From Streptomyces griseiscabiei (GTDB taxonomy: Bacteria; Actinomycetota; Actinomycetes; Streptomycetales; Streptomycetaceae): a stretch of DNA of 64,000 nucleotides. Where the stretch lies: contig NZ_JAGJBZ010000002.1 in assembly GCF_020010925.1 (NCBI RefSeq), positions 1,922,001-1,986,000 on the forward strand. The letters run 5' to 3'. Both the position numbers and the translations under genes were made by a program. Below are positions 14,181 to 30,856 of this stretch, piece by piece (within the stretch, counting starts at the first letter, position 1; every line of letters begins with the position of its first letter). Below the pieces are notes generated by a model. It made no database searches. It was not told where the DNA came from and was given only the letters and a program-made list of their open reading frames with translations.

Positions 14181-15196
14181 CGCAGCCCGTGTCCCCGCCC
14201 AGGGACAGTATCGACAAGGCGCCCGCGCCGAACGGGCCCCCGGCGTGGCGGACCATGCTGTTCCGGGCCGACGTCCGCACGCTCTCCCTCCTCGGCGTCC
14301 TCGCCGCGCTGATCCTCATCGGCGGCTTCACCAAGCCCGACGAGTTCCTCGACACCCGCAACCTCCAACTCGTCCTCACCCAGGCCTCGGTGATCGGTGT
14401 CGTCACCGTCGGCATGACCTTCGTCATCACCTCCGGCGGCATCGACCTCTCCGTGGGCGCGATCGTCGCCCTGGCCTCCGTGTGGGCGACGACCGTGGCC
14501 ACCCAGGAGTACGGGTTCGCCGGCATCCTCTTCACGGCGGTGATCGTCGGCGTCGGCTGCGGCCTGGTCAACGGGCTGCTCATCGCCTACGGCGGGATGG
14601 TCCCCTTCATCGCCACCCTCGCCATGCTCGCCTCGGCCCGCGGTCTCGCCCTGCAGATCACCGACGGCAGCACCCAGGTCGTCAGCGTCGACTCCATCCT
14701 GGACCTCGGCGAACGCGACGCGTACATCCTCGGCATCCCACCCCTCGTCCTGGTCTTCGCGTTCGTGACGATCATCGGCTGGCTCGTGCTGAACCGCACG
14801 ACCTTCGGCCGCCGCACCGTCGCCGTCGGCGGCAACGCCGAGGCGGCCCGGCTCGCGGGCATCGACGTCCGCCGCCAGCGGCTCTACCTCTATCTGCTCT
14901 CCGGACTGTGCTGCGGCATCGCCGCGTTCCTGCTGATCGTGCTCTCCGGCTCGGGCCAGAACACCAACGGCAACCTCTACGAGCTCGACGCCATCGCCGC
15001 CGCGATCATCGGCGGCACCCTGCTCACCGGCGGCCGGGGCACCATCACCGGCTCCGTGCTGGGCGTCCTGATCTTCACCACGATCACCAACATCTTCGCG
15101 CTCAACAACCTCCAGAGCGATGTCCAGCAGATCGCCAAGGGCGCGATCATCGTCGCCGCGGTCCTGGTCCAGCGACGCACGGCCAGTACGACCTGA
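14177..15196 (+). CDS. Sugar ABC transporter permease (RbsC type)
   Basis: This 339-residue membrane protein has about ten hydrophobic helices and the CUT2 permease signatures: GMTFVITSGGIDLSVGAI near residue 75 and AAAIIGGTLLTGGRGT near 275. The first 40 residues are polar and cytoplasmic. Its ATG overlaps the ATPase stop by four bases, so the two are translationally coupled. In this family the permease works as a dimer with one tandem ATPase pair. Specificity cannot be inferred from the permease itself. Confidence 0.95.
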   Translation: MTQPVSPPRDSIDKAPAPNGPPAWRTMLFRADVRTLSLLGVLAALILIGGFTKPDEFLDTRNLQLVLTQASVIGVVTVGMTFVITSGGIDLSVGAIVALASVWATTVATQEYGFAGILFTAVIVGVGCGLVNGLLIAYGGMVPFIATLAMLASARGLALQITDGSTQVVSVDSILDLGERDAYILGIPPLVLVFAFVTIIGWLVLNRTTFGRRTVAVGGNAEAARLAGIDVRRQRLYLYLLSGLCCGIAAFLLIVLSGSGQNTNGNLYELDAIAAAIIGGTLLTGGRGTITGSVLGVLIFTTITNIFALNNLQSDVQQIAKGAIIVAAVLVQRRTASTT

Positions 15197-15271
15197 CAGC
15201 ACGGCCCGACAGCACGACGTGCCACGCCGAAGAGCCGACGGGAAGAGCCGCAACCGGAAAGGTCCACCGCC

Positions 15272-16318
15272 ATGTCACAGTTCACCAGCCGTAGAGGACT
15301 GCTCTTCGGGACCGCCGCCGTCTCGGCCGGCGCCCTCCTCACCGGTTGCACCAGCAATGAGCCCAGCAAGGCCGGGGACGACACGGCCGCCAACGAGCAG
15401 CCGGCCGCCGACGACAAGCCCGGCAAGGCGGTCACCATCGGCTTCGCCGGACCGCAGGCCGACCACGGCTGGCTCAACGCGATCAACCAGAACGCCAAGA
15501 GCCGTGCCGAGCGGTACGAGGACGTCACCCTGGAGATCACCGAGGGCTCCAACGACACCGCCCAGCAGATCGGCCAGATCGAGACCCTCATCAACAAGAA
15601 GGTCGACGTCCTGGTCGTGCTGCCCGCCGACGGCAAGGCGCTCACCCAGGTCGGCCTCAAGGCGATGCGGGCCGGCATCCCCGTCGTCAACCTCGACCGG
15701 ATCTTCAACACCCCGCAGGCGTACCGCTGCTGGATCGGCGGCGACAACTACGGCATGGGCCTCAACGCCGGGCACTACATAGGCGAACAGCTCAAGGACA
15801 AGGGCGACGCCCGGGTCATCGAGCTGGCGGGCCTCGACAACCTGGAGCTGACCAAGCAGCGCACCCAGGGCTTCGACGACGCGCTGAAGAACTACCCCAA
15901 CATCAAGAAGGTGGCCCGGCAGGCCGCCGAGTTCACGGTGGAGTCCGGCCAGGCCAAGATGGCCCAACTGCTCCAGGCCCAGTCGAAGTTCGACGCGCTG
16001 TGGAACCACGACGACGACCAGGGCGTGGGCGCGCTGCGCGCCATCGAGCAGGCCGGGCGCGACGACTTCCTGATGGTCGGCGGCGCGGGCGCGCTCTCCG
16101 CGTTCCAGGCGATCAAGAAGGACGACGGGGTGCTGAAGGCCACCGTCCTCTACCCGCCGACCATGGCGGCCTCCGCGATCGACCTGGCCCGCGCCCTCGG
16201 CCAGGGCAAGGGCATCGGCGGCCTCGCCGAGTTCGAGATCCCGGCCTCGCTCACGCTCTACTCGGCGGTCGTCGACAAGAGCAACGTCGACCAGTACATG
16301 CCGACCGGCTTCAAGTGA
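15272..16318 (+). CDS. Sugar-binding lipoprotein of the ABC transporter
   Basis: The 348-residue protein has a twin-arginine-type lipoprotein signal: [20 protein letters not shown] followed by the lipidated cysteine C26. A short linker leads to a type 1 periplasmic-binding fold ([25 protein letters not shown]-type loops such as [39 protein letters not shown]), as in ribose and xylose binding proteins. The hinge and ligand loop contain several aromatic and Asp/Asn residues suited to a sugar. It follows the permease by 75 bases and completes the importer. A short foldback element follows the stop. Confidence 0.93.
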
Positions 16319-16342
16319 CGAGCCCCGCCGGACGGGCCTGAC

Positions 16343-16414
16343 CTAGGCCGTGTCCGCAAAGTCCCGTCTGCCCCGCCCTCCGGGCGACGACGGGACTTTG
16401 CGGACACGACCTGG
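16343..16414. mobile_element. Short foldback element, internally deleted relative of the 12411-12591 copy
   Basis: The left arm 16343-16366 is identical to the left arm of the longer copy, and the right arm 16391-16412 matches its right arm. The central hairpin of the long copy is missing, and only CCGCCCTCCGGGCG-type sequence remains between the arms. The outer right base set reads CTGG instead of CTAG. It lies between the binding-protein gene and the dehydrogenase gene and could act as a terminator or attenuator there. Confidence 0.75.
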
Positions 16415-16476
16415 CACGCGGGCCGCCGCGTCGGGCCCCACCCCCCACCGCGCCGCGACACGAGGAGGACACACGC

Positions 16477-18315
16477 ATGGGACAGCCGCAGCAGCCCGAC
16501 CAGGCCGAGGCGGAGGAGTCAGGAGCCGCACGGCCGGACGCCGACGCGGACGGCAGCACCGGAGGCGGGGACACCGCGGGCGGCGGGGGAACGCCGACCG
16601 GGGCTACCGGCCGGCCCGGGGCGGCGACCGACGCCGGCCCCCGGCCCGGCACGGCGGCTGCCCCGGACACTCTCCGTGGCGCGGCCTCCGGTGTCGGTCC
16701 GGGCGCGGGTCCGGCTTCCGGTGTCGGTTCGGGCTCCGGTCCGGACTCCGATGTCGGCTCCGGCTCCGGGGTGGCTTCGGGTGTTGGTTCGGGTTCCGGG
16801 GTGGCCTCGGGTGTCGGTTCGGGCTCTGGGTCGGCTTCAGGTGTCGGCTCGGGTTCGGGTTCCGGTCTGGCTTCCGGTGTCAGCTCCGGCACCGGGGTGG
16901 CTTCCGGTGTCGGCTCGGGCGCAGGTCCGGCCTCGGGTGTCGGTCCGGCTTCCGGTGTCGGCTCCGGCTCCGGGCCGGTAGCCGGTGTCGGCTCCCCTCC
17001 CGAGGCGGCGGTCGAAGCCGTCTCCCGTGTGGGCGGGGCGGCAGCCGGTCTCGGCCCTCGTCCCGGGGCGGCGGCCCCCGCCGGTCCGAGTGTCGGGGCA
17101 TGGCCCGCCGGGATCGCCGGCGGGCCCGGGAAGCCGGTGCTGCGGGTCGGGATGATCGGCTACGCGTTCATGGGCGCCGCGCACTCGCAGGGCTGGCGCA
17201 CGGCGGGCCGGGTCTTCGACCTGCCGCTGACCCCGGTCCTCGCCGCCGTGTGCGGCCGGGACGGCGACGCGGTCCGGGCCATGGCGGACCGGCACGGGTG
17301 GGCGCAGACGGAGACCGACTGGCGGGCGCTGATCGCCCGGGACGACATCGACCTCGTGGACATCTGCACCCCCGGCGACAGCCACGCCGAGATCGCCCTC
17401 GCCGCCCTCGCCGCGGGCAAGCACGTGCTCTGCGAGAAGCCCCTCGCCAACACCGTCGCGGAGGCCGAGGCGATGGCGACGGCAGCCGAAGAGGCCTACG
17501 CACAGGGCAAGTTGGCGATGGTCGGCTTCAACTACCGCCGGGTCCCCGCCACCGCGCTCGCCCGCCGGATGGTCGCCGAGGGGCGCCTCGGAGCCCTGCG
17601 GCACGTGCGGGTGACGTACCTTCAGGACTGGCTGGTCGACCCGGAGTTCCCGCTGACCTGGCGGCTGCGCAAGGAGTCCGCGGGGTCCGGGGCGCTCGGC
17701 GACCTGGGCGCCCACATCGTCGACCTCGCGCAGTATCTGGCGGGTGAGCCGGTGGTCGGGGTCTCCGCGCTGATGGAGACCTTCGTACGGGAACGGCCCC
17801 TGCCCGCAGGGGGGTCCAGCGGTCTGGCGTCCTCCGGCGGCACCGCCGGGCGCGGCGCGGTCACCGTCGACGACACGGCCCTGTTCACCGGCCGCCTCGC
17901 CTCCGGCGCCGTCGCCTCCTTCGAGGCCACCCGCTTCGCCACCGGCCGCAAGAACGCCCTGCGCATCGAACTCAACGGCGAGCGAGGCTCGTTGGCCTTC
18001 GACCTCGAACGGCTCAACGAACTCGCCTACCACGACCACACCGAGCCCGCCGCCCACGCCGGCTTCCGCCGCATCCTCGTCACCGAGCCCGACCACCCCT
18101 ACCTGGACGCCTGGTGGCCGCCGGGCCACGGCCTCGGCTACGAGCACTCCTTCGTCCACCAGGCCCGCGACCTGGTCCACGCCGTCGCGGAGGGCCGGCG
18201 GCCCGAGCCGTCCTTCGCCGACGGGCTCCAGGTGCAGCGGGTGCTCGCGGCGGTCGAGGAGAGCGCCGAGAAGAACTCCGTCTACACCCCGACCCACACC
18301 CCCACTGCGGTCTGA
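16477..18315 (+). CDS. Gfo/Idh/MocA-family sugar dehydrogenase with a long Gly/Ser-repeat N-terminus
   Basis: Residues 222-605 form a normal MocA-type NAD(P) oxidoreductase: [17 protein letters not shown] is the Rossmann loop, EKPLANT is the conserved cofactor/catalytic motif, and the [17 protein letters not shown] stretch carries the substrate-site Asp and His. Residues 1-220 are abnormal: low complexity, with a run of about ten decapeptides close to [10 protein letters not shown] at 70-172. The start at 16477 has a strong GAGGAGGA ribosome site, so the extension is probably translated; a later start is the alternative. Relatives oxidise sugars or polyols, often to 3-keto forms. It opens a run of sugar genes after the ABC transporter. 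Confidence 0.88.
16681..16992 (+). repeat. In-frame tandem repeat coding Gly/Ser-rich decapeptides
   Basis: The DNA repeats a unit of about 30 bases (core GGTGTCGGTTCGGG with variants), always in frame, inside the dehydrogenase gene. The variants differ mostly at third positions, so the array is not freshly duplicated. The opposite strand reads as a [13 protein letters not shown] frame, which is a shadow of the same repeat. Confidence 0.8.
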
Positions 18316-18327
18316 GGAGGCCCCCAC

Positions 18328-19332
<1,005 letters not shown>

Positions 19333-19444
19333 GCGGCCACCGGCAACAGCGACAGCCCTCTGTCTTCCGGGGTGACGGCGCACCCCGGCGTACCGCACAC
19401 ACCCGTACACCTCCGTACGACCAGCCCCTTACTGGAGGCATTTC

Positions 19445-21961
19445 GTGCACCCGTACGACGACACCAGACACCCCACCCGCAGCACCAGCCTCTTCAGACG
19501 TCGCGGACTGCGCGGGCCGATCGCCCTGCTCAGCGGTCTGCTGCTCGCGGGCGCCTCGCTCTCCCTCACCGCGCCGGCGGCGGGGGCGGCCGACTCCGGA
19601 CCGAGGTCCGCCGACGCGAAGTCCGCCGCGGCCGAGGACTTCCAGCAGGTCACCCTCGCCAAGGGCGAACCGGAGGTCGGCGAGCCCATGTCGCTCGCCG
19701 TCCTCCCGGACCGCTCGGTCCTGCACACCTCCCGCGACGGCGAACTGCGCCTGACCGACGCGGCGGGCAACACCAGGCTCGCGGGCAAACTCGACGTGTA
19801 CTCCCACGACGAGGAGGGCCTCCAGGGCATCGGCGTCGACCCTGCCTTCTCCGACAACCGGTTCATCTATCTGTACTACGCGCCCCCGCTGAACACCCCG
19901 GCCGGCGACGCCCCCGAGACCGGCACGGCCGCCGACTTCGCGCCCTTCGACGGCGTCAACCGCCTCTCCCGCTTCGTCCTGAAGGCCGACGGCACCCTGG
20001 ACAAGGCCAGCGAGACGAAGGTCCTCGACGTCCCCGCCTCCCGGGGCATCTGCTGCCACGTCGGCGGTGACATCGACTTCGACGCGGCGGGCAACCTGTA
20101 TCTGTCGACGGGCGACGACAGCAACCCGTTCCAGTCGGACGGCTTCACCCCCATCGACGAACGCGCCAACCGCAACCCGGCCTTCGACGCCCAGCGCACC
20201 TCCGGCAACACCAACGACCTGCGCGGCAAGATCCTGCGCATCAAGGTCGGCGCCGACGGCTCGTACACCGTCCCCGACGGCAACCTCTTCGCGCCCGGCA
20301 CGGACAAGACGCGCCCCGAGATCTACGCGATGGGCTTCCGCAACCCGTTCCGCTTCAGCGTCGACAAGAAGACCGGCATCCTCTACGTCGGCGAGTACGG
20401 CCCCGACGCGGGCGCGGCCAACCCCTCGCGGGGCCCGGCCGGACAGGTCGAGTTCGCCCGCGTGACCAAGCCGGGCAACTTCGGCTGGCCGTACTGCACC
20501 GGCAAGAACGACGCCTACGTGGACTACGACTTCGCCACCGGCACCTCGGGAGCCGCCTTCGACTGCGCGGCCCCGAAGAACACCTCGCCGAACAACACCG
20601 GCCTCACCGACCTGCCGCCCGCCGAGCCCGCCTGGATCCCGTACAACGGCAACTCCGTCCCGGAGTTCGGCGACGGCTCCGAGTCCCCGATGGGCGGCCC
20701 GGTCTACGACTACGACGCCGCGCTCGACTCCCCGGTGAAGTTCCCCGAGGCGTACGACGGCGACTTCTTCGCCGGTGAGTTCGGCCGCCGCTGGATCAAG
20801 CGGATCAGCAGCGACACCGACGGCACCGTCCAGTCGATCAACAACGTGCCCTGGACCGGCACCCAGGTCATGGACATGGCCTTCGGCCCGGACGGCGCGC
20901 TGTACGTCCTCGACTACGGTCTCGCCTGGTTCGGCGGCGACGAGAACTCCGCGCTCTACCGCATCGAGAACGCCACCGACGGCCACTCCCCGGTCGCCGC
21001 CGCCGCGGCCGACCGCACCTCGGGCCAGGCGAAACTGAGGGTCCGCTTCTCCTCGGAGGGCACCAGCGACCAGGACGGCGACGCCCTCACCTACCGCTGG
21101 GACTTCGGCGACGGCGGTACCTCCACGGCAGCGAACCCGAAGCACAGGTACACGACGAACGGCACCTACACCGCGACCGTGACCGCCAAGGACTCCACCG
21201 GCCGTACCGGCAGCGCGAGCGTGCGGATCGTCGTCGGTAACACCGCGCCCGAGGTCGAGCTGCGACTCCCCGAGGACGGGCAGCTGTTCGCGTTCGGTGA
21301 CGCCGTCCCGTTCAAGGTGAAGGTGCGCGACAAGGAGGACGGCACCTCCATCGACTGCGCCAAGGTCAAGGTCACCTTCGTCCTCGGCCACGACAGCCAC
21401 GGCCACCCGGTGACCTCCGCCAACGGCTGCACCGGCACCATCCAGACCAGCGCCGACGGCGGCCACGACGAGAACGCCAACATCTTCGGGGTGTTCGACG
21501 CCGAGTACACCGACGGCGGAGGCGGCGGCCAGGCCCCGCTGACCACCCACGACACGAACGTGGTCCAGCCCACCCACCGCCAGGCCGAGCACTACGGCGA
21601 CTCGTCGGGTGTCGTGGTGCAGTCCAAGGCCACGGCGCACGGTGGCAAGACGGTCGGTGACATCTCCGACGGCGACTGGATCTCCTTCGAGCCGTACGTC
21701 CTGTCCAACGCCACGAAGATCACCGCGCGGATCTCCTCCGGAGGAGCGGGCGGCAAGCTGGAGGTCCGGGCGGGCTCCGCGACCGGCCAGGTCCTCGGCA
21801 GCGCGACCGTGCCGACGACCGGCGGCTGGGACACCTTCCAGGACGTCACCGCGAACCTGTCCAAGGCCCCGCGCGGCACCACCACGCTCTACCTGGTTTT
21901 CAAGGGGAGCGGCTCCGGGGGCCTGTTCGACGTGGACGACTTCACCTTCACGAAGCGGTGA
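19445..21961 (+). CDS. Secreted PQQ-type sugar dehydrogenase with PKD and CBM6-like domains
   Basis: The protein has 838 residues. A signal peptide occupies about 1-48 (RGPIALLSGLLLAGASLSL, cleavage near AAGAA). A six-bladed beta-propeller of the soluble glucose dehydrogenase type (GSDH/PQQ family) spans 65-515, with SHDEEGLQGIGVDPAF, GDDSNPFQ, RNPFRFSVD and EFGRRWIKRI. A PKD domain follows at about 530-615 (YRWDFGDGGTS). Residues 700-838 look like a CBM6-type carbohydrate module (GDWISFEPYVL, GGLFDVDDFTF). The GTG start follows GGAGG. It probably oxidises extracellular sugars bound to a polymer; whether PQQ is used is not known. It shares the operon with the ThuA-type hydrolase. Confidence 0.9.
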   Translation: MHPYDDTRHPTRSTSLFRRRGLRGPIALLSGLLLAGASLSLTAPAAGAADSGPRSADAKSAAAEDFQQVTLAKGEPEVGEPMSLAVLPDRSVLHTSRDGELRLTDAAGNTRLAGKLDVYSHDEEGLQGIGVDPAFSDNRFIYLYYAPPLNTPAGDAPETGTAADFAPFDGVNRLSRFVLKADGTLDKASETKVLDVPASRGICCHVGGDIDFDAAGNLYLSTGDDSNPFQSDGFTPIDERANRNPAFDAQRTSGNTNDLRGKILRIKVGADGSYTVPDGNLFAPGTDKTRPEIYAMGFRNPFRFSVDKKTGILYVGEYGPDAGAANPSRGPAGQVEFARVTKPGNFGWPYCTGKNDAYVDYDFATGTSGAAFDCAAPKNTSPNNTGLTDLPPAEPAWIPYNGNSVPEFGDGSESPMGGPVYDYDAALDSPVKFPEAYDGDFFAGEFGRRWIKRISSDTDGTVQSINNVPWTGTQVMDMAFGPDGALYVLDYGLAWFGGDENSALYRIENATDGHSPVAAAAADRTSGQAKLRVRFSSEGTSDQDGDALTYRWDFGDGGTSTAANPKHRYTTNGTYTATVTAKDSTGRTGSASVRIVVGNTAPEVELRLPEDGQLFAFGDAVPFKVKVRDKEDGTSIDCAKVKVTFVLGHDSHGHPVTSANGCTGTIQTSADGGHDENANIFGVFDAEYTDGGGGGQAPLTTHDTNVVQPTHRQAEHYGDSSGVVVQSKATAHGGKTVGDISDGDWISFEPYVLSNATKITARISSGGAGGKLEVRAGSATGQVLGSATVPTTGGWDTFQDVTANLSKAPRGTTTLYLVFKGSGSGGLFDVDDFTFTKR

Positions 21962-21970
21962 GGGGCGGCC

Positions 21971-23362
21971 ATGGGAACGCAAGGACGCGTGTGGGCCGCT
22001 GTGGGCGGTGCCGCCCTGCTGATCGGATGCGTGTCGGGGCCGGCCGTGTCCGATGAGGCCGGCGCCTCCGGGAAACACCGGGACGAGCGCCGGGTGCTGG
22101 TGTTCTCCAAGACCGCCGGCTTCCGCCACGACTCGATCCCCGAGGGCGTCACGGCCGTACGGGAACTGGGCGCCGCCCACGGCTTCGCGGTCGACACCAC
22201 GGAGGACGCGAGTGCCTTCACCACCCGCAACCTCGGGCGCTACGACGCGGTCGTGTTCCTCTCGACGACCGGTGACGTCCTGAACGCGGCCCAACAGGGC
22301 GCGTTCGAGCGGTACATCAAGCGCGGCGGCGCGTACGTCGGCATCCACGCCGCCGCCGACACCGAGTACGACTGGGCCTTCTACGGCGGACTCGCGGGCG
22401 CGTACTTCCAGTCGCACCCCGCGATCCAGCCCGCGACGGTCGACGTGGAGGACCACGCCCACCCGGCCACCGCCGGACTGGACGCGGCCTGGAACCGCAC
22501 GGACGAGTGGTACAACTACCGCTCCAACCCCCGTGAGCGGGCCCATGTCCTCGCCTCGCTCGACGAGTCGTCGTACAGCGGCGGCACCATGAACGGCGAC
22601 CATCCCATCGCCTGGTGCCAGGACTACCAGGGCGGCCGTGCCTTCTACACCGGCGGCGGCCACACCAAGGAGTCCTTCGCCGAACCCGCCTTCCGGCAGC
22701 ACCTGTTGGGCGGCATCCGGTGGGCGACCGGGGAGGCCCAGGCGGACTGCCGGCCGGAGAACGGCTACCGGCCGCTCTTCGACGGCACCGCCGACTCGCT
22801 CGCCGCGTGGCGGCAGGCGGGCCCGGGCTCCTTCATCCTGTCCGACGACGGCACGATCACGTCGTCCGGCGGGATGGGCATGCTCTGGTACGCCGACCGG
22901 AGCCTCGGGTCGTACTCCCTGAAGCTCGACTGGCGGATGTCCGGTGCCTCCGGCGACGACAACTCCGGTGTGTTCGTGGGCTTCCCGCCCTCGGACGATC
23001 CCTGGTCGGCCGTGAACAACGGCTACGAGGTCCAGATCGACGCCACCGACGTGCCCGAGCGCACCACCGGGTCCGTCTACGGCTTCCGCTCCGCCGACCT
23101 CGGCAAGCGCGACCGTGCGCTGAACCCGCCGGGGGAGTGGAACACCTACGAGATCCGCGTGGAGGGCGAGCGCCTCCGCGTCTGGCTCAACGGCGTGAAG
23201 ATCAACGACTTCACCAACACCGATCCGGTACGGAGCCTGCGCGACGGTCACTTCGGCATCCAGAACCACGGTGCCGACGACCGGGTGTCCTTCCGTGACA
23301 TCCGGATCAAGGAACTGCCCGTGCGGGCCGCCCACCCGGCGGACCCGCCCCCGGGCGACTGA
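21971..23362 (+). CDS. ThuA-like domain fused to a 3-keto-disaccharide hydrolase (DUF1080) domain, exported lipoprotein
   Basis: The 463-residue protein starts with a lipoprotein signal (ALLIGC, C20). Residues 40-250 are ThuA-like (VLVFSKTAGFRHDSIPEG, GGAYVGIHAAADTEY, NGDHPIAWCQ). Residues 255-450 are the DUF1080/3-keto-disaccharide hydrolase jelly roll (YRPLFDGTADSLAAWRQ, DWRMSGASGDDNSGVFVG, GEWNTYEIRVEGERLRVWLNG pattern). ThuA proteins act with MocA dehydrogenases on trehalose-type sugars, and DUF1080 proteins cleave 3-keto-glycosides. Together with the dehydrogenase at 16477 this supports 3-keto-glycoside catabolism. It starts 10 bases after the PQQ-type gene. A terminator follows. Confidence 0.9.
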   Translation: MGTQGRVWAAVGGAALLIGCVSGPAVSDEAGASGKHRDERRVLVFSKTAGFRHDSIPEGVTAVRELGAAHGFAVDTTEDASAFTTRNLGRYDAVVFLSTTGDVLNAAQQGAFERYIKRGGAYVGIHAAADTEYDWAFYGGLAGAYFQSHPAIQPATVDVEDHAHPATAGLDAAWNRTDEWYNYRSNPRERAHVLASLDESSYSGGTMNGDHPIAWCQDYQGGRAFYTGGGHTKESFAEPAFRQHLLGGIRWATGEAQADCRPENGYRPLFDGTADSLAAWRQAGPGSFILSDDGTITSSGGMGMLWYADRSLGSYSLKLDWRMSGASGDDNSGVFVGFPPSDDPWSAVNNGYEVQIDATDVPERTTGSVYGFRSADLGKRDRALNPPGEWNTYEIRVEGERLRVWLNGVKINDFTNTDPVRSLRDGHFGIQNHGADDRVSFRDIRIKELPVRAAHPADPPPGD

Positions 23363-23494: not shown

Positions 23495-24649
23495 ATGTCC
23501 GTGTCCGTTTCTCCACAGAGCGTCGGCGTCTGGCTGATCGGAGCCCGCGGCTCCGTCGCCACCACCGTCGTCGCGGGCTGCGCGGCCCTCGCGGCGGGCC
23601 TGCACCCCCCGACGGGCATGGTCACCGAGACCCCGCTCTTCACCGGCACGGGTCTGCCCGCGCTCGCCTCCCTCGTCTTCGGCGGCCACGACACGGTCGA
23701 CTGCCCCCTGCCCAAACGCGCCGAGGCCCTGGCCGAGGGCGGTGTCCTGCCCCACGGCCTCCCCGCCGCGCTCGCCTCCGAACTGGCCGCCGCCGACCGG
23801 GAGATCAGGCCCGGCGGCCCCCTCCCGGGCGACACCCGGGGCCCCGACGAACTGATCTCCGCCTTCGCCGCCGACATCGAGGACTTCGTACGACGGCGGG
23901 GGCTGACCCGAGCGGTGGTGGTGAACGTGGCGTCCACGGAACCCGCACCGACCGGCACGGCGCTGCCGCCCAGCTCCCTGTACGCGGCGGCGGCGCTCCG
24001 CGCGGGCTCGCCCTACGTGAACTTCACCCCCTCGACCGGACTCCACCACCCGGCCCTCGCCTCCCGCGCCGCCTCCTGCGGGCTCCCTCACGCGGGCCGC
24101 GACGGCAAGACCGGGCAGACCCTGCTCCGGTCCGTCCTCGGCCCGATGTTCGCGCAACGGGCGCTGGCCGTCCGAGCCTGGTCCGGGACCAATCTGCTCG
24201 GCGGTGGCGACGGCGCCGCCCTCGCCGACCCGGCCGCCGCCGCCGCGAAGAACGCCGGCAAGGAGCGCGTCCTGACCGACAGCCTGGGCACCACCCCCGA
24301 GGGCGAGACCCACATCGACGACGTCCCCGCCCTCGGCGACTGGAAGACCGCCTGGGACCACATCGCCTTCGACGGCTTCCTCGGCGCCCGCATGGTGCTC
24401 CAGACCACCTGGCAGGGCTGCGACTCGGCGCTGGCAGCGCCCCTGATCCTCGACCTGGCCCGCCTCCTGTCCCGGGCCCACGAAGCGGGCCTCTCCGGCC
24501 CCCTGACCGACCTGGGCTTCTACTTCAAGGACCCGGTGGGGCAGGGCCCGGCGGCACTGGGGGAGCAGTACGCGGCGCTGGCGGGGTTCGCGGAACGGCT
24601 GCGGCGGCCCGGCACGGGCGGTCCGGAGCCGCGCGAGGAGACCCGATGA
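23495..24649 (+). CDS. Inositol-3-phosphate synthase-like protein
   Basis: The 384-residue protein has the MIPS layout: an N-terminal NAD fold (GVWLIGARGSVATTVVAG), then VVNVASTEP, YVNFTPSTG, GRDGKTGQTLLRSVL and WSGTNLLGGGDG, the last two being core MIPS motifs for NAD and glucose-6-phosphate. DHIAFDGFLGARM matches the C-terminal catalytic region. The start follows GAGGAGG. MIPS makes inositol-1-phosphate from glucose-6-phosphate, but versions linked to ebo-type clusters may act on a related cyclitol or keto-sugar. The stop overlaps the next start as ATGA, which links it tightly to that cluster. Confidence 0.92.
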   Translation: MSVSVSPQSVGVWLIGARGSVATTVVAGCAALAAGLHPPTGMVTETPLFTGTGLPALASLVFGGHDTVDCPLPKRAEALAEGGVLPHGLPAALASELAAADREIRPGGPLPGDTRGPDELISAFAADIEDFVRRRGLTRAVVVNVASTEPAPTGTALPPSSLYAAAALRAGSPYVNFTPSTGLHHPALASRAASCGLPHAGRDGKTGQTLLRSVLGPMFAQRALAVRAWSGTNLLGGGDGAALADPAAAAAKNAGKERVLTDSLGTTPEGETHIDDVPALGDWKTAWDHIAFDGFLGARMVLQTTWQGCDSALAAPLILDLARLLSRAHEAGLSGPLTDLGFYFKDPVGQGPAALGEQYAALAGFAERLRRPGTGGPEPREETR

Positions 24650-25545
24650 CTGCCTCACCCGCCCCCCTCACCCCCCTCGCCCCCCTCTCCTTCGGCTACG
24701 GCACCAACGGCCTCGCCGACCTCCGCCTCGACGACGCCCTCGCCCTCCTCGCCGACCTCGGCTACGACGGAGTCGGCCTGACCCTCGACCACATGCACCT
24801 CGATCCACTGGCCCCGGACCTGACCGCCCGCACCCGGCGCCTCGCGCGGCGGTTGGACACGCTCGGGCTGGGCGTCACCGTGGAGACCGGGGCCCGCTAT
24901 GTCCTGGACCCCCGCCGCAAGCACGGCCCCACGCTGCTGGACCCGGACCCGGACGACCGTGCCCGCCGAGCGGACCTGCTGATCCGCGCCGTACAGGTCG
25001 CCGCCGACCTCGGCGCCCACGCCGTGCACTGCTTCAGCGGAGTCACCCCGCCCGGCACCGACGAGGACACCGCCTGGAAACGCCTCCCCGAAGCGCTCAC
25101 CCCCGTCCTCGACGCCGCCACCGCCGCCGGTGTCCCCCTCGCGATCGAACCCGAACCCGGTCACCTCCTCGCCACCCTCGCCGACTTCCACCGCCTCCGC
25201 GAGGCCCTGGACAGCCCCGCCCCGCTCGGCCTCACCCTCGACATCGGCCACTGCCAGTGCCTCGAACCCCTCCCTCCCGCCGACTGCGTCCGTGCCGCCG
25301 CGCCCTGGCTGCGGCACGTGCAGATCGAGGACATGCGGCGCGGTGTCCATGAGCATCTGCCCCTGGGCGAGGGCGAGATCGACTTCCCACCCGTGCTGGC
25401 GGCCCTGGCCGCCGCCGACTACCGGGCCCTGACCGTCGTCGAACTGCCACGCCACTCCCACGCCGGCCCCCACTTCGCCGAACGGTCCCTCGCCTTCCTG
25501 CGCCGGACGACCGGCCGCACGGCTCACCCCGGGAGCGCTCAGTGA
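24646..25545 (+). CDS. Sugar phosphate isomerase/epimerase-like TIM barrel of the ebo-type operon
   Basis: The 299-residue protein is a TIM barrel of the xylose isomerase-like/AP endonuclease 2 superfamily. Probable metal ligands are the Glu in AIEPEPGH, Asp and His in TLDIGHCQ, the His in LRHVQIEDM and the Glu in VVELPRH. The start overlaps the MIPS stop (ATGA) and its own stop overlaps the EboA start (GTGA), so it is translated as a chain with both. It would act on a small sugar or cyclitol, perhaps the product of the upstream synthase. No closer assignment is possible. Confidence 0.88.
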   Translation: MTASPAPLTPLAPLSFGYGTNGLADLRLDDALALLADLGYDGVGLTLDHMHLDPLAPDLTARTRRLARRLDTLGLGVTVETGARYVLDPRRKHGPTLLDPDPDDRARRADLLIRAVQVAADLGAHAVHCFSGVTPPGTDEDTAWKRLPEALTPVLDAATAAGVPLAIEPEPGHLLATLADFHRLREALDSPAPLGLTLDIGHCQCLEPLPPADCVRAAAPWLRHVQIEDMRRGVHEHLPLGEGEIDFPPVLAALAAADYRALTVVELPRHSHAGPHFAERSLAFLRRTTGRTAHPGSAQ

Positions 25546-26261
25546 TCCACGACCACACCCCGGCCGACCCGACGGCCCGCCCCGCCCGATCCGCACACCC
25601 GGCCCACCCCGCCCGCACCACCCCCGCCGACCTGCGCGGCCACCTGGACACCCACCTCCCGGACGCCGCCCACGCCTGGCTCGGCCGGGCACTGGACGAG
25701 GCCGCCGACCATCCGGGCTCCCACGGGCCCCTCGCCGTCTGGGAGTCGCGCCTCGCCGAGGCGGGCCGCCGCTGCGGCCCCGAGCACGCCGACGCCGTCC
25801 GCGTCCTGATCCTGCACGCGGCCCGCGCCGACACCGACGCCCTCACCCGGGTCTACCGCCAGGGCACCGCCGACGAACGCCGAGCCGTCCTGCACGCCCT
25901 GCCCCACCTCGTGCCCGGCCCCGCCGCCGTGCCCCTCGTCGAGGACGCCCTGCGCACCAACGACACCCGCCTGATCGCCGCCGCCGTCGGGCCGTACGCC
26001 GCCCGCCACCTGGCCGCGCACCACTGGCGGCACGCCGTGCTCAAGTGTCTGTTCACCGCGGTGCCCGTCGACGAGATCACCGGCCTGGACCGCCGTGCCC
26101 GCGGCGACACCGAACTCGCCCGCATGCTCGGCGCGTTCGCCGAGGAACGCACCGCCGCGGGCCGTCCCGTACCCGAGGACCTGTACCGCGTCCTGGCCCT
26201 GACCGCGCCCCCACCGGCCGACGAGCACGGCCTCGACGGCAAGGAGTCCGAGGAGTCCTGA
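25542..26261 (+). CDS. eboA: EboA-family protein
   Basis: The 239-residue helical protein ends with the stretch that marks EboA: AAHHWRHAVLKCLFTAVPVD, followed by GLDRRARGDTELARMLGAFAEERTAAGRPVPEDL. The first 35 residues are Ala/Pro-rich and probably disordered. It starts at a GTG overlapping the previous stop, with GGGAG upstream. EboA is a cytoplasmic protein of unknown activity in the ebo cluster, which in the cyanobacterium Nostoc punctiforme is needed to move scytonemin precursor to the periplasm. The family match is firm; the function is not. Confidence 0.9.
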   Translation: MIHDHTPADPTARPARSAHPAHPARTTPADLRGHLDTHLPDAAHAWLGRALDEAADHPGSHGPLAVWESRLAEAGRRCGPEHADAVRVLILHAARADTDALTRVYRQGTADERRAVLHALPHLVPGPAAVPLVEDALRTNDTRLIAAAVGPYAARHLAAHHWRHAVLKCLFTAVPVDEITGLDRRARGDTELARMLGAFAEERTAAGRPVPEDLYRVLALTAPPPADEHGLDGKESEES

Positions 26262-27109
26262 TGCGTATCTTCGACCCCCACATCCACATGACGTCACGCA
26301 CCACCGACGACTACGAGGCGATGCACGGGGCGGGCGTCCGCGCGGTCGTCGAGCCGGCCTTCTGGCTGGGCCAGCCCCGCACCTCGCCCGACTCCTTCGT
26401 CGACTACTTCGACTCCCTGCTGGGCTGGGAGCCCTTCCGCGCCGCCCAGTACGGCATCGCCCACCACTGCGCCCTCGCCCTCAACCCCAAGGAGGCCAAC
26501 GACCCGCGCTGCGCCCCGGTCCTGGACCAGCTGCCCCGCTACCTCCTCAAGGACCGGGTGGTGGCCGTCGGCGAGATCGGCTACGACTCCATGACCCCGG
26601 CCGAGGACCACGCCCTCGAACACCAGCTGCAACTGGCCGCCGACCACGGCCTGCCCGCCCTGGTGCACACCCCGCACCGGGACAAGCTCGCCGGTCTGCG
26701 CCGCACCCTCGACGCCGTACGGGCCTCCGCGCTGCCCGTCGACCGGGTCCTGCTCGACCACCTCAACGAGACCACGGTGGCGGAGGCCAGGGACAGCGGT
26801 GCCTGGCTCGGCTTCTCCGTCTATCCCGACACCAAGATGGACGAGGAGCGGATGGTCGCCGTCCTCAAGGAGTTCGGCCCCGAGAAGGTGCTGGTCAACT
26901 CCGCCGCCGACTGGGGCAGAAGCGACCCCCTCAAGACCCGCCGGGTCGCCGACGCACTCCTCGCCTCCGGGTTCGCCGAGGACGCCGTGGACCTCGTGCT
27001 GTGGCGCAACCCGGTCGCCTTCTACGGACTCAGCGGCCGTCTCGCCCTCGACCCGACCGCCACCGGCCCCACCCACGAGGGCAACAGCATCCTGCGCGGC
27101 GGTGAGTGA
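26261..27109 (+). CDS. eboB: TatD-like metal-dependent hydrolase (EboB type)
   Basis: The 282-residue protein starts MRIFDPHIHMTSRTTDDY, the metal-binding HxH of TatD hydrolases. It continues with VAVGEIGYDSM (metal Glu), LPALVHTPHRDKL (His), LLDHLNE (His) and NSAADWGRSD (Asp), a complete amidohydrolase metal set. The ATG overlaps the last base of the EboA stop (TGATG), with GGAG just upstream. A longer opening in this frame lies within EboA and is not used. TatD relatives cleave nucleic acid or small esters; in ebo clusters the substrate is unknown. Confidence 0.9.
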   Translation: MRIFDPHIHMTSRTTDDYEAMHGAGVRAVVEPAFWLGQPRTSPDSFVDYFDSLLGWEPFRAAQYGIAHHCALALNPKEANDPRCAPVLDQLPRYLLKDRVVAVGEIGYDSMTPAEDHALEHQLQLAADHGLPALVHTPHRDKLAGLRRTLDAVRASALPVDRVLLDHLNETTVAEARDSGAWLGFSVYPDTKMDEERMVAVLKEFGPEKVLVNSAADWGRSDPLKTRRVADALLASGFAEDAVDLVLWRNPVAFYGLSGRLALDPTATGPTHEGNSILRGGE

Positions 27110-27112
27110 CCG

Positions 27113-28282
27113 ATGCGCTTCCGCCACCCCGACGGTTCCACCGTCCACCTCGCCTACTGCACCAACGTGCACCCGGCCGAGACCCTCGACGGTGTCCTCG
27201 CCCAGCTCCGCGACCACTGCGAGCCCGTACGCCGCCGCCTCGGCCGCGACCGGCTCGGCATCGGCCTGTGGCTGGCCAGGGACGCCGCCGCGGCCCTGGT
27301 GACCGACCCGTCCGCCCTGCGCGGTCTGCGCGCCGAACTCGACCGGCGCGGCCTGGAGGTCGTCACCCTCAACGGCTTCCCCTATCAGGGCTTCGGCGCC
27401 GAAGAGGTCAAGTACCGCGTCTACCGGCCCGACTGGGCCGACCCCGAGCGCCTCGACCACACCTCCTCCCTCGCCCGCGTCCTCGCCCGGCTCCTCCCCG
27501 ACGACGTCACCGAGGGCACCATCTCCACCCTGCCCCTGGCCTGGCGCACCACCTTCGACGAGCGGCACGCCGCCCGGTCCCGCACGGCCCTGCGCACCCT
27601 CGCCGAACGCCTCGACGTCGTCGCCGAGCTGACCGGCCGCTCCATCCGCGTCGGCCTGGAACCCGAGCCCGGCTGCACCGTCGAGACCACCGCCGACGCC
27701 ATCGGCCCCCTCACCGACATCGGTCACGACCGCATCGGCATCTGTGTCGACACCTGCCATCTCGCCACCTCCTTCGAAGACCCGCACACCGCCCTGGACG
27801 CCCTCGCCCGAGCAGGCGTCCCCGTCGTCAAGTCCCAGCTCTCGGCCGCCCTGCACGCCGAGCACCCCCACCTCCCCGAGGTCCGCGAAGCACTCGCCGC
27901 CTTCGACGAGCCCCGCTTCCTGCACCAGACCCGCACCTCCACCGCCGCCGGCCTGCGCGGCACCGACGACCTCGGCGAAGCCCTCAGCGGCGACACCCTG
28001 CCCGACTCCTCCCCGTGGCGCTCCCACTTCCACGTCCCGCTCCACGCGGCCCCCGCCGCACCCCTCACCTCCACCCTCCCGGTCCTCAAAGCCGCCCTCA
28101 CCCACCTGGTCGGCGGCGCCCACCCCGTCACCCGCCATCTGGAGGTCGAGACCTACACCTGGCAGGCCCTGCCGCCCGAACTGCGCCCCAGCACCCGCGC
28201 CCAGCTCGCCGACGGCATCGCCGCCGAACTCGCCCTGGCCCGCGACCTGCTGACGGACCTCGGCCTCAAGGAGCTGCCATGA
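27113..28282 (+). CDS. eboE: EboE-family TIM-barrel protein
   Basis: The 389-residue protein matches the EboE type: HLAYCTNVHPAETLDGVLAQ at the N-terminus, LNGFPYQGFGAEEVKYRVYRPDW with the typical extended loop, EPEPGCTVETT, GICVDTCHLATSFE and HYLEVETYTW-like HLEVETYTWQAL near the end. These give Glu, Asp and His residues in xylose isomerase-like metal positions. It starts three bases after the EboB stop. Family members are required in ebo clusters, with no defined reaction. The 3' end lies in a 20-base-period duplication that also includes the next start. Confidence 0.9.
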   Translation: MRFRHPDGSTVHLAYCTNVHPAETLDGVLAQLRDHCEPVRRRLGRDRLGIGLWLARDAAAALVTDPSALRGLRAELDRRGLEVVTLNGFPYQGFGAEEVKYRVYRPDWADPERLDHTSSLARVLARLLPDDVTEGTISTLPLAWRTTFDERHAARSRTALRTLAERLDVVAELTGRSIRVGLEPEPGCTVETTADAIGPLTDIGHDRIGICVDTCHLATSFEDPHTALDALARAGVPVVKSQLSAALHAEHPHLPEVREALAAFDEPRFLHQTRTSTAAGLRGTDDLGEALSGDTLPDSSPWRSHFHVPLHAAPAAPLTSTLPVLKAALTHLVGGAHPVTRHLEVETYTWQALPPELRPSTRAQLADGIAAELALARDLLTDLGLKELP

Positions 28283-28305
28283 ACCCCAAGGAGCTGCCGT
28301 GAACC
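28267..28305 (+). repeat. Tandem duplication across the EboE stop and the next start, making a 7-codon frame
   Basis: CAAGGAGCTGCC(A/G)TGAACC occurs at 28267-28285 and again at 28287-28305. Each copy carries an AAGGAG ribosome site and a start. The first copy begins an ATG frame of seven codons (28279-28302); the second begins the real gene at GTG 28299. Confidence 0.8.
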
Positions 28306-29714
28306 GGGACAGCACCACCCCGGGGCCCCGACCCGACGCCGGTCCCACCCCTCTCCTCGTCCTGGACGTCGTCGGCCTCACCCCCCGTCTCCTCGACCAC
28401 ATGCCCCGCCTGAAGGCCCTCGGGCAGTCCGGCTCCCGCGCCCCGCTCGGCACCGTCCTGCCCGCCGTCACCTGCGCCGCCCAGTCCACCTTCCTCACCG
28501 GCGCGCTCCCCGCCGAGCACGGCATCGTCGGCAACGGCTGGTACTTCCGTGAACTCGGCGACGTCCTGCTGTGGCGGCAGCACAACGGTCTCGTCGCCGG
28601 CGACAAACTCTGGGACGCCGCCCGCCGCGTCCACCCCGGCTACACGGTCGCCAACATCTGCTGGTGGTACGCCATGGGCGCCGACACCGACATCACCGTC
28701 ACCCCCCGTCCGATCTACTACTCCGACGGCCGCAAGGAACCCGACTGCTACACCCGGCCCCCGGCCCTGCACGACGAACTCACCGCGAAACTCGGCACCT
28801 TCCCCCTGTTCCACTTCTGGGGACCGGGCGCCGACCTGGTCTCCAGCCGCTGGATCATCGACGCGACCCGGCACATCCTCCGCACCCGCCACCCCGACCT
28901 GGCCCTCTGCTACCTCCCGCATCTCGACTACGACCTGCAGCGATACGGCCCCGACGACCCACGCTCCCTCAAGGCCGCCGCCGACCTCGACCGGGCCCTG
29001 GCACCCCTGCTCCACGACGCCCGCACGCAGGGCCGTACCGTCGTCGCGCTCTCCGAGTACGGCATCACCCGCGTGGAACGGCCCGTCGACATCAACCGCG
29101 CCCTGCGCCGCGCCGGCCTCCTCGACGTGCACACCCAGGACGGCATGGAGTACCTCGACCCGATGGCCTCACGTGCCTTCGCGGTCGCCGACCACCAGAT
29201 CGCCCATGTGTACGTACGCCGTCCCGAGGACCTGGACGCCACCCGCGAAGCCCTCGCGGACCTGCCCGGGATCGGTCAACTCCTCGACGACGAGGGCAAG
29301 AAGGCCCATCACCTCGACCATCCGCGCTCCGGCGAGTTCGTCGCCGTCGCGGAGCCGGACGCCTGGTTCACGTACTACTACTGGCTCGACGACGACCGCG
29401 CGCCCGACTTCGCACGCACCGTCGAGATCCATCGCAAACCCGGCTACGACCCGGTCGAGCTGTTCCTGGACCCGCTCGACCCGCTGGTGAAGCTCAAGGC
29501 GGCCACGGCACTGGCCCGCAAGAAACTCGGCATGCGCTACCGCATGGCGGTCGTGCCGCTGGACCCCTCGCCTATTCGAGGCAGCCACGGCCGCCTTCCC
29601 GCGAGCGACGACGACGGTCCGCTCATCATCTGCTCCACCCCCCGAGCCGTCGGTGACCGTGTGGCGGCCACCGATGTGAAAGCACTCCTGCTCCGACTTG
29701 CCGGTCTCTCCTGA
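28299..29714 (+). CDS. Alkaline phosphatase-superfamily phosphodiesterase (EboF-like)
   Basis: The 471-residue protein belongs to the nucleotide pyrophosphatase/phosphodiesterase branch. LLVLDVVGLTP carries the first metal Asp; the nucleophile region is LPAVTCAAQSTFLTGALPAEHG with a catalytic Thr, followed by YLPHLDYDLQRYGPD (Asp, His) and SEYGITRVERPVDINRAL. The last metal His is in AFAVADHQIAH. It has no signal peptide, so it acts in the cytoplasm. The GTG start is 16 bases past the EboE stop with AAGGAG upstream. An equivalent enzyme often closes ebo-type operons; hydrolysis of a sugar or nucleotide phosphodiester is inferred. Confidence 0.88.
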   Translation: MNRDSTTPGPRPDAGPTPLLVLDVVGLTPRLLDHMPRLKALGQSGSRAPLGTVLPAVTCAAQSTFLTGALPAEHGIVGNGWYFRELGDVLLWRQHNGLVAGDKLWDAARRVHPGYTVANICWWYAMGADTDITVTPRPIYYSDGRKEPDCYTRPPALHDELTAKLGTFPLFHFWGPGADLVSSRWIIDATRHILRTRHPDLALCYLPHLDYDLQRYGPDDPRSLKAAADLDRALAPLLHDARTQGRTVVALSEYGITRVERPVDINRALRRAGLLDVHTQDGMEYLDPMASRAFAVADHQIAHVYVRRPEDLDATREALADLPGIGQLLDDEGKKAHHLDHPRSGEFVAVAEPDAWFTYYYWLDDDRAPDFARTVEIHRKPGYDPVELFLDPLDPLVKLKAATALARKKLGMRYRMAVVPLDPSPIRGSHGRLPASDDDGPLIICSTPRAVGDRVAATDVKALLLRLAGLS

Positions 29715-29800: not shown

Positions 29801-30856
29801 ATGAGCCGCACGCACCAGCCCGATCCCGAGCTCACCCACCGCCTCAGCAGACGAGGCATGCTCGGCGTGGCCGCAGGCGCCACCGTCGCCGCCCTGCTGG
29901 GCACGGCCGCCCCGGCGCAGGCCGCCTCCGGCACCGAGGCCGCGACCGCCACCGGAGCCGCCGACAAGGGCCGGGGCCGCCCCGTCCTCCCGAACGGCCG
30001 CCTCGGCATCCAGCTCTACAGCCTCCGCGACAAGGTCTCCACCCTCGGCTTCGCCCCCGTCTTCGCCGAGCTGGAGAAGTACGGCTACGACGAGGTCGAG
30101 TTCGCCGGCTACACCCAGGGCTCGGCGGGCCCCATCACCCTCAAACAGCTGAAGCGGCTGGCGCGCGACCACGGCCTGGACCCGATCGGCAGCCACGTCG
30201 GCTACTACGCGAGCGACCCGAACGCGTACACCTTCGCCCAGAACCTCACCAAGGTCCTCGACGACGCCCAGGCCCTCGGCCTCAAGCACATAGGCACCGC
30301 CGCCGGCCCCTTCCGCTACGGCACGACCGTCGACGCGATGAAGCGGGCCGCGCACGAGTTCAACACCTACGGCGCGGCGGCCCGGGCGCGCGGCATGAAG
30401 TTCTACCAGCACAACCACTCCGAGGAGTTCTCCTTCGCCACCGACGACCCCAAGGTGCGCCTCTACGACGTACTGCTCCGTGAGACCGACCCCGACCTCG
30501 TCTTCCTGGAGATGGACATCTTCTGGGCGTACGTGGCCCAGTTCCGCTTCTCCAAGCGGCCCGACGGCACCGCCGCGCCCTTCGAGCCGCTCGACTACGT
30601 CGTGCGCCGCCCGGACCGCTACCCGCTGTTCCACGTCAAGGACGGCGAGAGCGACCCGTCCAACCCGTTCGGCTACCGCATGACGGACGTCGGCGACGGC
30701 GACATCGACTACCAGAAGTTCATCTCGGCCGTCAACGATCTGAAGGGTTCCCGACGCGCCCACCACTGGCAGGCCGAGCACGACAACCCCACCGAGTCCT
30801 TCACCTTCGCCCGCCGCTCCAGCGCGCACCTGCACTCGCTGCGGGAGAAGTGCTGA
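29801..30856 (+). CDS. Tat-exported sugar phosphate isomerase/epimerase-like TIM barrel
   Basis: The 351-residue protein has a twin-arginine signal (LSRRGMLGVAAGATVAALLG, cleavage near AQA at about residue 46). The mature domain is an AP endonuclease 2-type barrel: LGIQLYSLRDKV, YDEVEFAGYTQGS, HNHSEEF (metal His/Glu), LEMDIFWAY (Asp), PLFHVKDGES (His) and HHWQAEHDNPTES (Glu). GGAG precedes the ATG. A secreted barrel fits extracellular processing of oxidised glycosides by the PQQ-type enzyme upstream. It is the last gene before a strong bidirectional terminator. Confidence 0.9.
   Translation: MSRTHQPDPELTHRLSRRGMLGVAAGATVAALLGTAAPAQAASGTEAATATGAADKGRGRPVLPNGRLGIQLYSLRDKVSTLGFAPVFAELEKYGYDEVEFAGYTQGSAGPITLKQLKRLARDHGLDPIGSHVGYYASDPNAYTFAQNLTKVLDDAQALGLKHIGTAAGPFRYGTTVDAMKRAAHEFNTYGAAARARGMKFYQHNHSEEFSFATDDPKVRLYDVLLRETDPDLVFLEMDIFWAYVAQFRFSKRPDGTAAPFEPLDYVVRRPDRYPLFHVKDGESDPSNPFGYRMTDVGDGDIDYQKFISAVNDLKGSRRAHHWQAEHDNPTESFTFARRSSAHLHSLREKC

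Follow-up and report, generated by a model that had tools for sequence, protein, structure and literature searches.

An ebo operon of Streptomyces griseiscabiei that has lost eboC and is probably complemented by a second ebo cluster

Introduction

Clusters of ebo genes span several phyla and a plastid. We analyzed an ebo operon of Streptomyces griseiscabiei, at positions 23495 to 29714 of a stretch of 64,000 nucleotides (contig NZ_JAGJBZ010000002.1, positions 1,922,001 to 1,986,000; hereafter the window), that has no gene for EboC, the UbiA-family prenyltransferase of such clusters. In Nostoc punctiforme, each of five deletions (eboA, eboB, eboC, eboE, and eboF) traps the scytonemin monomer in the cytoplasm, and a prenylated cyclitol lipid was proposed as carrier, a model that was itself untested in that paper (Klicki 2018, PMC6282210). 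An isoprenoid-cyclitol product was proposed for the ebo ABCDEF type, and the actinobacterial EboA was described as fused to a xylose-isomerase-like domain (Yurchenko 2016, PMC5133447). The word 'inositol' is absent from the main text of that paper, and the available text of PMC6092422 does not mention inositol. Flavobacteria have an EboC homologue within their ebo clusters, UbiA-297, for which membrane assays showed farnesylation of 8-hydroxyquinoline-2-carboxylic acid; the acceptors tested were aromatic, and the available text of the paper holds no cyclitol acceptor and no mention of inositol (PMC9235831). In Streptomyces coelicolor, SCO3242 (putative transferase) and SCO3243 (myo-inositol phosphate synthase, MIPS) are among the CDA cluster genes (PMC3610822), and both have been treated as CDA or secondary-metabolism genes (PMC3610822, PMC3897704).

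The window operon resembles each of these systems in part. It shares with the ebo ABCDEF type the tandem EboA, EboB, EboE, and EboF and an adjacent sugar-phosphate cyclase, and its pair of TIM barrel and EboA matches the fused xylose-isomerase-like EboA (PMC5133447). Unlike that type, it has no EboC in cis, its cyclase is a MIPS and not a PF01761-type EboD, and it has an extra TIM barrel. Homologues of its EboA, EboB, EboE, and EboF are in the scytonemin ebo cluster of N. punctiforme (PMC6282210), but in S. griseiscabiei EboC is at another locus. The SCO3242/SCO3243 locus likewise combines an NF045897 prenyltransferase with a MIPS, but EboC is present there and the locus was published within the CDA cluster (PMC3610822). 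A literature search, with subscription papers mostly outside its reach, found no description of a MIPS-type ebo cluster or of EboC loss. Based on the results below, we think that the window probably holds an actinobacterial MIPS-type ebo cluster from which eboC has been lost and to which a second cluster supplies EboC in trans.

The window operon lacks EboC

Six genes of the usual seven-gene run are present in the window, in order, and EboC is absent in cis. All six are on the forward strand, and all six open reading frames are intact: a sugar-phosphate cyclase of the MIPS type, substituting for EboD (23495..24649; PF07994, 115.8 bits, and PF01658, 99.5 bits), a xylose-isomerase-like TIM barrel (24646..25545; PF01261, 153.2 bits), EboA (25542..26261; NF035938, 161.7 bits, cut-off 50), EboB, a TatD-like metal hydrolase (26261..27109; PF01026, 47.2 bits), EboE (27113..28282; NF035939, 426.5 bits, cut-off 250), and EboF, of the type I phosphodiesterase/nucleotide pyrophosphatase family (28299..29714; PF01663, 226 bits). 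The open reading frames and family scans thus place eboA, eboB, eboE, and eboF in one cluster. Inspection of the junctions showed overlaps of ATGA (MIPS/TIM), GTGA (TIM/EboA), and TGATG (EboA/EboB), and spacings of 3 nt between EboB and EboE and 16 nt between EboE and EboF. The start of the TIM-barrel gene sits on the MIPS stop codon, which is the site of eboC in relatives. Searching all 64 kb by tblastn with two Streptomyces EboC queries (E <= 1e-3) gave zero matches, ruling out an EboC concealed elsewhere in the window. An earlier note, made from the sequence alone, had described six genes of these families with three overlaps and no UbiA gene; coordinates, junctions, and Pfam/NCBIfam scans agree with the first part, and the negative tblastn and the MIPS/TIM overlap with the second.

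The usual actinobacterial order is MIPS-EboC-TIM-EboA-EboB-EboE-EboF. The EboE model was passed in 202/295 genus genomes and 90/394 class genomes. The named Streptomyces loci that we compared were the best 80 of 517, and hence are close relatives of the window. Both MIPS and TIM were visible in 63 of the 80; EboC lay between them in 53 of these and was absent or a relic in 10. The remaining 17 had no measurable interval, 14 being cut by contig ends and three (L010, L030, and L077) not. Most named loci with EboC have the order ThuA-MIPS-EboC-TIM-A-B-E-F. Outside Streptomyces, 24 regions, one per genus, were picked by hand from 70 matching genomes of the class. MIPS adjoins EboC in 19 of them, 18 with all seven genes and one (L126) with no visible TIM; the other five are L132, L141, and L145, which match the EboE model only, one split set (G602), and L138. 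By sequence, then, it is a predicted MIPS that takes EboD's place in ebo clusters of Actinomycetes. This survey of the class rules out MIPS as the odd feature of the operon, and the idea in the earlier note that MIPS marks an unusual variant did not hold, MIPS being the actinobacterial norm.

Loss of EboC coincides with a second ebo cluster

The absence of EboC is a derived loss and not the ancestral state. On a tree of 60 operons made from EboB plus EboE DNA, there are at least five changes of EboC state, and the EboC-less groups are two clades, of ten operons (that of the window) and of four, the pair L015 and L048, and the single loci L034 and L042. The window operon is nested among EboC-bearing loci on this tree and has the same flanking genes, indicating common descent. 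Relics remain in two of the 15 lacking loci examined (other weak matches, to a Pro/Ala/Arg-rich linker or very short, were not counted): L034 keeps both EboC termini with the core gone, and L042 keeps a C-terminal stretch. Both are in genomes with an EboC of the second kind described next.

The genome encodes an EboC in a second ebo cluster (hereafter the p cluster), ~137 kb upstream of the window operon on the same contig. A PF01040 profile search found four UbiA-family genes in the whole genome, one of them a true EboC (G000:C2:1808246-1809274). It scores 357.4 bits (cut-off 260) with NF045897, 'SCO3242 family prenyltransferase', is related to the NCBIfam EboC model NF035940 at 107.1 bits, under the cut-off of 250, and retains the Asp-rich motif NDYADATID. 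The closest solved structure, in a weak match (E 0.005), is the digeranylgeranylglyceryl phosphate synthase 6m31, an enzyme that prenylates a polyol phosphate. The closest homology of the Nostoc EboC is likewise digeranylgeranylglyceryl phosphate synthase (PMC6282210). Genes for an inositol-monophosphatase-family protein and an FAD oxidoreductase lie before the p EboC, and TIM, EboA, EboB, EboE, EboF, and a P450 follow it. The p cluster encodes all of the Ebo functions apart from the cyclase, having no MIPS. The five proteins common to the two clusters are only 48-75% identical (EboB 75.2%), and the p cluster is therefore an old paralogue. The other three UbiA genes, which from their sequences look like CtaB, MqnP-like, and DPPR-synthase-like, were missed by the EboC queries and were rejected as partners.

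All 18 distinct genomes that lack EboC in the window-type cluster (cluster 1) carry another EboC, of the p type. We scored a genome as p-positive if it had an EboC at least 62% identical to that of the p cluster and not beside MIPS. Among the named loci, 50 of the 80 were chosen, including all ten that lack EboC, and 49 were searched (L047 was left out). All 10 lacking genomes were p-positive (69-90% identity), versus 9/35 with EboC (Fisher, 2.9e-5); this comparison omits four loci whose genomes have a p-type EboC, namely L007 and L009 (contig ends) and L010 and L030 (rearranged). In a sample of 159 EboE-bearing genomes of the genus, 6/6 lacking genomes were p-positive, versus 8/138 with EboC (8 p-positive and 130 p-negative; Fisher, 2.7e-7). 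The rest of the 159 comprised four undetermined genomes (G001, G017, G063, and G152), eight with no cluster-1 MIPS, and G050, G150, and G198, with no matches at the thresholds used. Four genomes (G038, G113, G118, and G173) that were p-positive by the 62% rule were re-read as having a third, MIPS-bearing type and were moved by hand. Another 57 genomes, to which the search was extended once the rule had been formed (G253, G561, G604, and G628 had been read before), gave three new lacking genomes (G248, G254, and G264), all three p-positive. Among these 57, seven were p-positive, two had no match, and 48 were p-negative with an EboC match whose position beside MIPS was not checked in each. The sample sets overlap (for example, G049 is the genome of L034 by coordinates); the 18 lacking genomes are distinct. 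The p regions were read in 15 of the 18 and contained MIPS in none; in G248, G254, and G264, the p type is known from the EboC match alone.

Several genomes that might have been counterexamples were set aside. G180 has a run of N with an EboC C-terminus beside it, G125 and G222 have EboC in cis, the loci in G001, G017, G152, and G263 end at contig edges, and the locus in G063 is rearranged.

The chance that five losses would all fall in p-positive genomes is (18/159)^5, or ~2e-5, from the genus sample, and (28/55)^5, or ~0.03, in the enriched tree of 55 rows. Based on these results, the p EboC ~137 kb away is, judging from sequence, the most likely prenyltransferase donor to the window operon. 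The earlier note had taken the system to function with no prenyltransferase and had named a co-regulated UbiA homologue elsewhere as what would overturn that view. A UbiA of the right family, found by the genome-wide search in a second ebo cluster, is half of this, and the p-type EboC predicted in all 18 lacking genomes speaks against the view itself. The note's mention of a related set in the S. coelicolor CDA region proved sound: the p EboC is of the SCO3242 family (NF045897), and SCO3242 and SCO3243 are listed in the CDA cluster (PMC3610822). SCO3242 and SCO3243, published with the genes for the CDA antibiotic, may thus constitute an ebo module.

Other genes are lost or divided between loci

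EboF is also lost in p-positive genomes. We scored gene damage over 60 rows (33 p-positive and 27 p-negative), with L010 and L030 outside the rows, L010 because it has no interval to score. EboF was missing, partial, or in two frames in 7/33 p-positive rows (L006, L012, L022, L148, L165, L191, and L195; four less than 70% covered) versus 0/27 p-negative rows; the two-frame calls may be sequencing errors. MIPS, for which the p cluster has no gene, was damaged in 0/33 p-positive versus 3/27 p-negative rows (L013, L077, and L168; a second MIPS, L167, is present in the L168 genome). TIM was damaged in one row each (L048, p-positive and truncated; L077, p-negative), and EboA was less than 70% covered in one row each (L165, p-positive; L067, p-negative).

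In G300 and G602, one Ebo set is divided between two loci. G300 has a single EboC, in a remnant p cluster (L094), and a single EboE, in an EboC-less cluster 1 (L015). G602 belongs to a genus from a different family; its MIPS-A-B-E and C-TIM-F groups are on two contigs, thousands of bases from the ends. Four genomes retain cluster 1 and have a p cluster (L094, L114, L116, and L119) that is cut to EboC and TIM, with no EboA, EboB, EboE, or EboF; in L119, EboC itself is a fragment. In G303, p-type A-B-E-F genes lie within cluster 1 (L106 and L107).

Weighing the alternatives

We considered the possibility that the operon is a specialized, prenyl-free form of ebo, with an unprenylated metabolite derived from a cyclitol as its product or exported compound. 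The six window genes are intact and translationally coupled, and the genes that remain in the EboC-less clade are under purifying selection, persisting with no EboC in cis in eight genomes of that one clade. The median pairwise ratios of nonsynonymous to synonymous substitution (dN/dS) were 0.25 for MIPS, 0.19 for TIM, 0.41 for EboA, 0.15 for EboB, 0.18 for EboE, and 0.18 for EboF (eight genomes; seven sequences for EboF, since S. scabiei L006 has none). However, 18/18 losses are in genomes that carry a further EboC, EboF loss likewise occurs only in p-positive rows, and G300 and G602 split one full set over two loci. We therefore regard a prenyl-free variant as unlikely, and the window operon as probably a derived, complementable variant of the known cluster.

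It is also conceivable, though quite improbable, that the p cluster took over, that EboC is no longer needed, and that the window operon is at an early stage of degeneration. Such decay would fit the absent or partial EboF in L006, L022, L148, and L191 and the condition of cluster 1 in S. tailanensis (L010/L121), a p-positive genome in which this cluster has no MIPS, EboC, or TIM and has EboF in pieces, and which holds a full p cluster (L090). It is at odds with dN/dS values of 0.15-0.41 across the EboC-less clade, with six intact open reading frames in the window, and with the absence of MIPS damage in all 33 p-positive rows (L010, which is not a row, excepted).

Several observations weigh against the supply of EboC in trans. 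The p cluster has its own A, B, E, and F and may be a separate pathway, a point that also speaks for a prenyl-free window operon. G014 and G068 have a p cluster and no cluster-1 MIPS; because their p clusters occur with no cluster 1, the p cluster does not depend on a window-type MIPS. The joint loss of MIPS, EboC, and TIM in L010 looks more like decay than sharing, and the truncated TIM of L048 fits decay as well. In three lacking genomes (G302, G306, and G248), there is also an additional complete cluster that encodes both MIPS and EboC (L097, L102, and L189), so that its EboC may be the donor there. Among the p-positive rows, 15/33 keep their own EboC. The p EboC is only ~47% identical to a cluster-1 EboC, and the interchangeability of the two is thus an assumption. 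In G257, the EboC query gave no match and the place of EboC is unreadable. Fisher values are weakened because the test ignores kinship, and an independent-pairs test over the 55 rows gave p values of 0.25-1; no pair was opposite, and significance was out of reach because there are only about four pairs.

MIPS and the proposed product

The window MIPS is distinct from the housekeeping inositol synthase. The closest solved structure is Ino1 of Archaeoglobus fulgidus (1u1i, 206 bits), and in the structure-hit alignment N233, D239, K252, K256, K284, and K345 match the archaeal MIPS. K256 and K345 align with lysines mutated to Ala in two mutant structure entries, and we take N233, D239, K252, and K284 to be functional residues of the archaeal enzyme. 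With both Pfam domains and these Asn/Asp/Lys residues, the protein has the features of a predicted MIPS. Its score with the mycothiol INO1 model is 26.9 bits (cut-off 638), versus 733.3 bits for a separate housekeeping gene (TIGR03450, cut-off 638) in the same genome, and the window MIPS is therefore not the mycothiol INO1. A five-membered-cyclitol-phosphate synthase (6k96) was among the relatives in the same structure search, and a different MIPS product is therefore possible. The window operon contains no eboD (PF01761-type cyclase). The single PF01761 gene of the genome is on another contig, and its protein gave no tblastn match in 182 loci, a search that a strongly diverged EboD could escape.

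That MIPS only supplies inositol, and is placed in the operon by chance, is very improbable. In its favor, the residues that matter are conserved, but the genome has the separate housekeeping INO1, the inositol route of S. coelicolor is named as the operon inoAR (PMC7581861), and MIPS adjoins EboC in 19/24 of the other-genera regions. The cyclitol role proposed for MIPS in the earlier note is still likely on sequence grounds, given the separate housekeeping synthase; as the sign of an exceptional pathway it fell away with the survey.

As the product, we propose an inositol-type lipid that carries a prenyl chain and serves in metabolite traffic. MIPS would cyclize a sugar phosphate, expected to be glucose-6-phosphate, to inositol phosphate, and EboC would add a prenyl chain. 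TIM/EboA, EboB, EboE, and EboF would then modify the head group, and the resulting membrane lipid would serve in metabolite export, as proposed for the scytonemin monomer in Nostoc. An actinobacterial MIPS as a different cyclase fits the cyclitol-lipid proposals of Klicki 2018 and Yurchenko 2016. An aromatic acceptor for EboC is possible because UbiA-297 farnesylates an aromatic quinoline in vitro. Our confidence in this chemistry is clearly lower than in the loss of EboC with supply in trans. A MIPS conserved at the cyclase position suggests a head group of the inositol type, so that there is a definite compound to search for.

More tentatively, and with considerable doubt, Ebo proteins might be pooled cell-wide, yielding one diffusible prenyl-inositol carrier for several secondary-metabolite pathways. 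The replacement of EboD by MIPS would then give an inositol-like head, and a second cluster would provide interchangeable parts and permit reciprocal loss. The repeated natural losses show which ebo genes another locus can supply, and the question of one shared Ebo molecule is thereby testable in ordinary Streptomyces strains.

Neighboring genes and variant loci

The genes flanking the window operon are conserved in most of the named loci. Upstream of MIPS, on the same strand, is a ThuA plus 3-keto-disaccharide hydrolase gene (21971..23362; PF06283 and PF06439), a neighbor in 64/80 Streptomyces loci, several of which are shortened by contig ends. Downstream of EboF is a TIM-barrel protein (29801..30856, forward strand; PF01261, 60.5 bits), present in 78/80 loci, with a twin-arginine-like N-terminal signal by eye. 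Next to the ThuA/3-keto-disaccharide hydrolase gene, on its upstream side (12639-21961), is a run of genes for a sugar ABC transporter, for a Gfo/Idh-like dehydrogenase and a TIM-barrel protein (these two by eye), and for a secreted glucose/sorbosone dehydrogenase with CBM6.

Additional arrangements were seen among the other loci. L167 (G222:C10) and L178 (G235:C11) are solitary extra MIPS genes with no EboA, EboB, EboC, or EboE nearby; each adjoins a TIM-barrel gene resembling that downstream of the window operon. Streptomyces also has a third type of ebo cluster (L097, L111, L113, L179, and L193), which encodes an EboC and a MIPS 54-58% identical to that of the window. The mosaic in G303, in which p-type EboA-B-E-F lies between cluster-1 EboE and EboF, spans 9693-20000 of L107 (G303:C78), corresponding to 7151-18046 of L030; its MIPS lies on a separate contig (L158), and ~8 kb upstream of TIM is an m-type EboC.

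Outside Streptomyces, L132, L141, and L145 pass the EboE model (359-419 bits) and were rejected as ebo clusters, with no other Ebo query matching beside them. Their TIM barrels are 33-35% identical to the window EboE, and L132 and L141 share a context of peptidase-like and dehydrogenase-like genes (by eye). L138 (7145-9203) has EboC-A-B-E-F and no MIPS or TIM; an adjacent Gfo/Idh dehydrogenase, which resembles levoglucosan dehydrogenase (373 bits, below the cut-off of 650), is possibly another cyclitol source.

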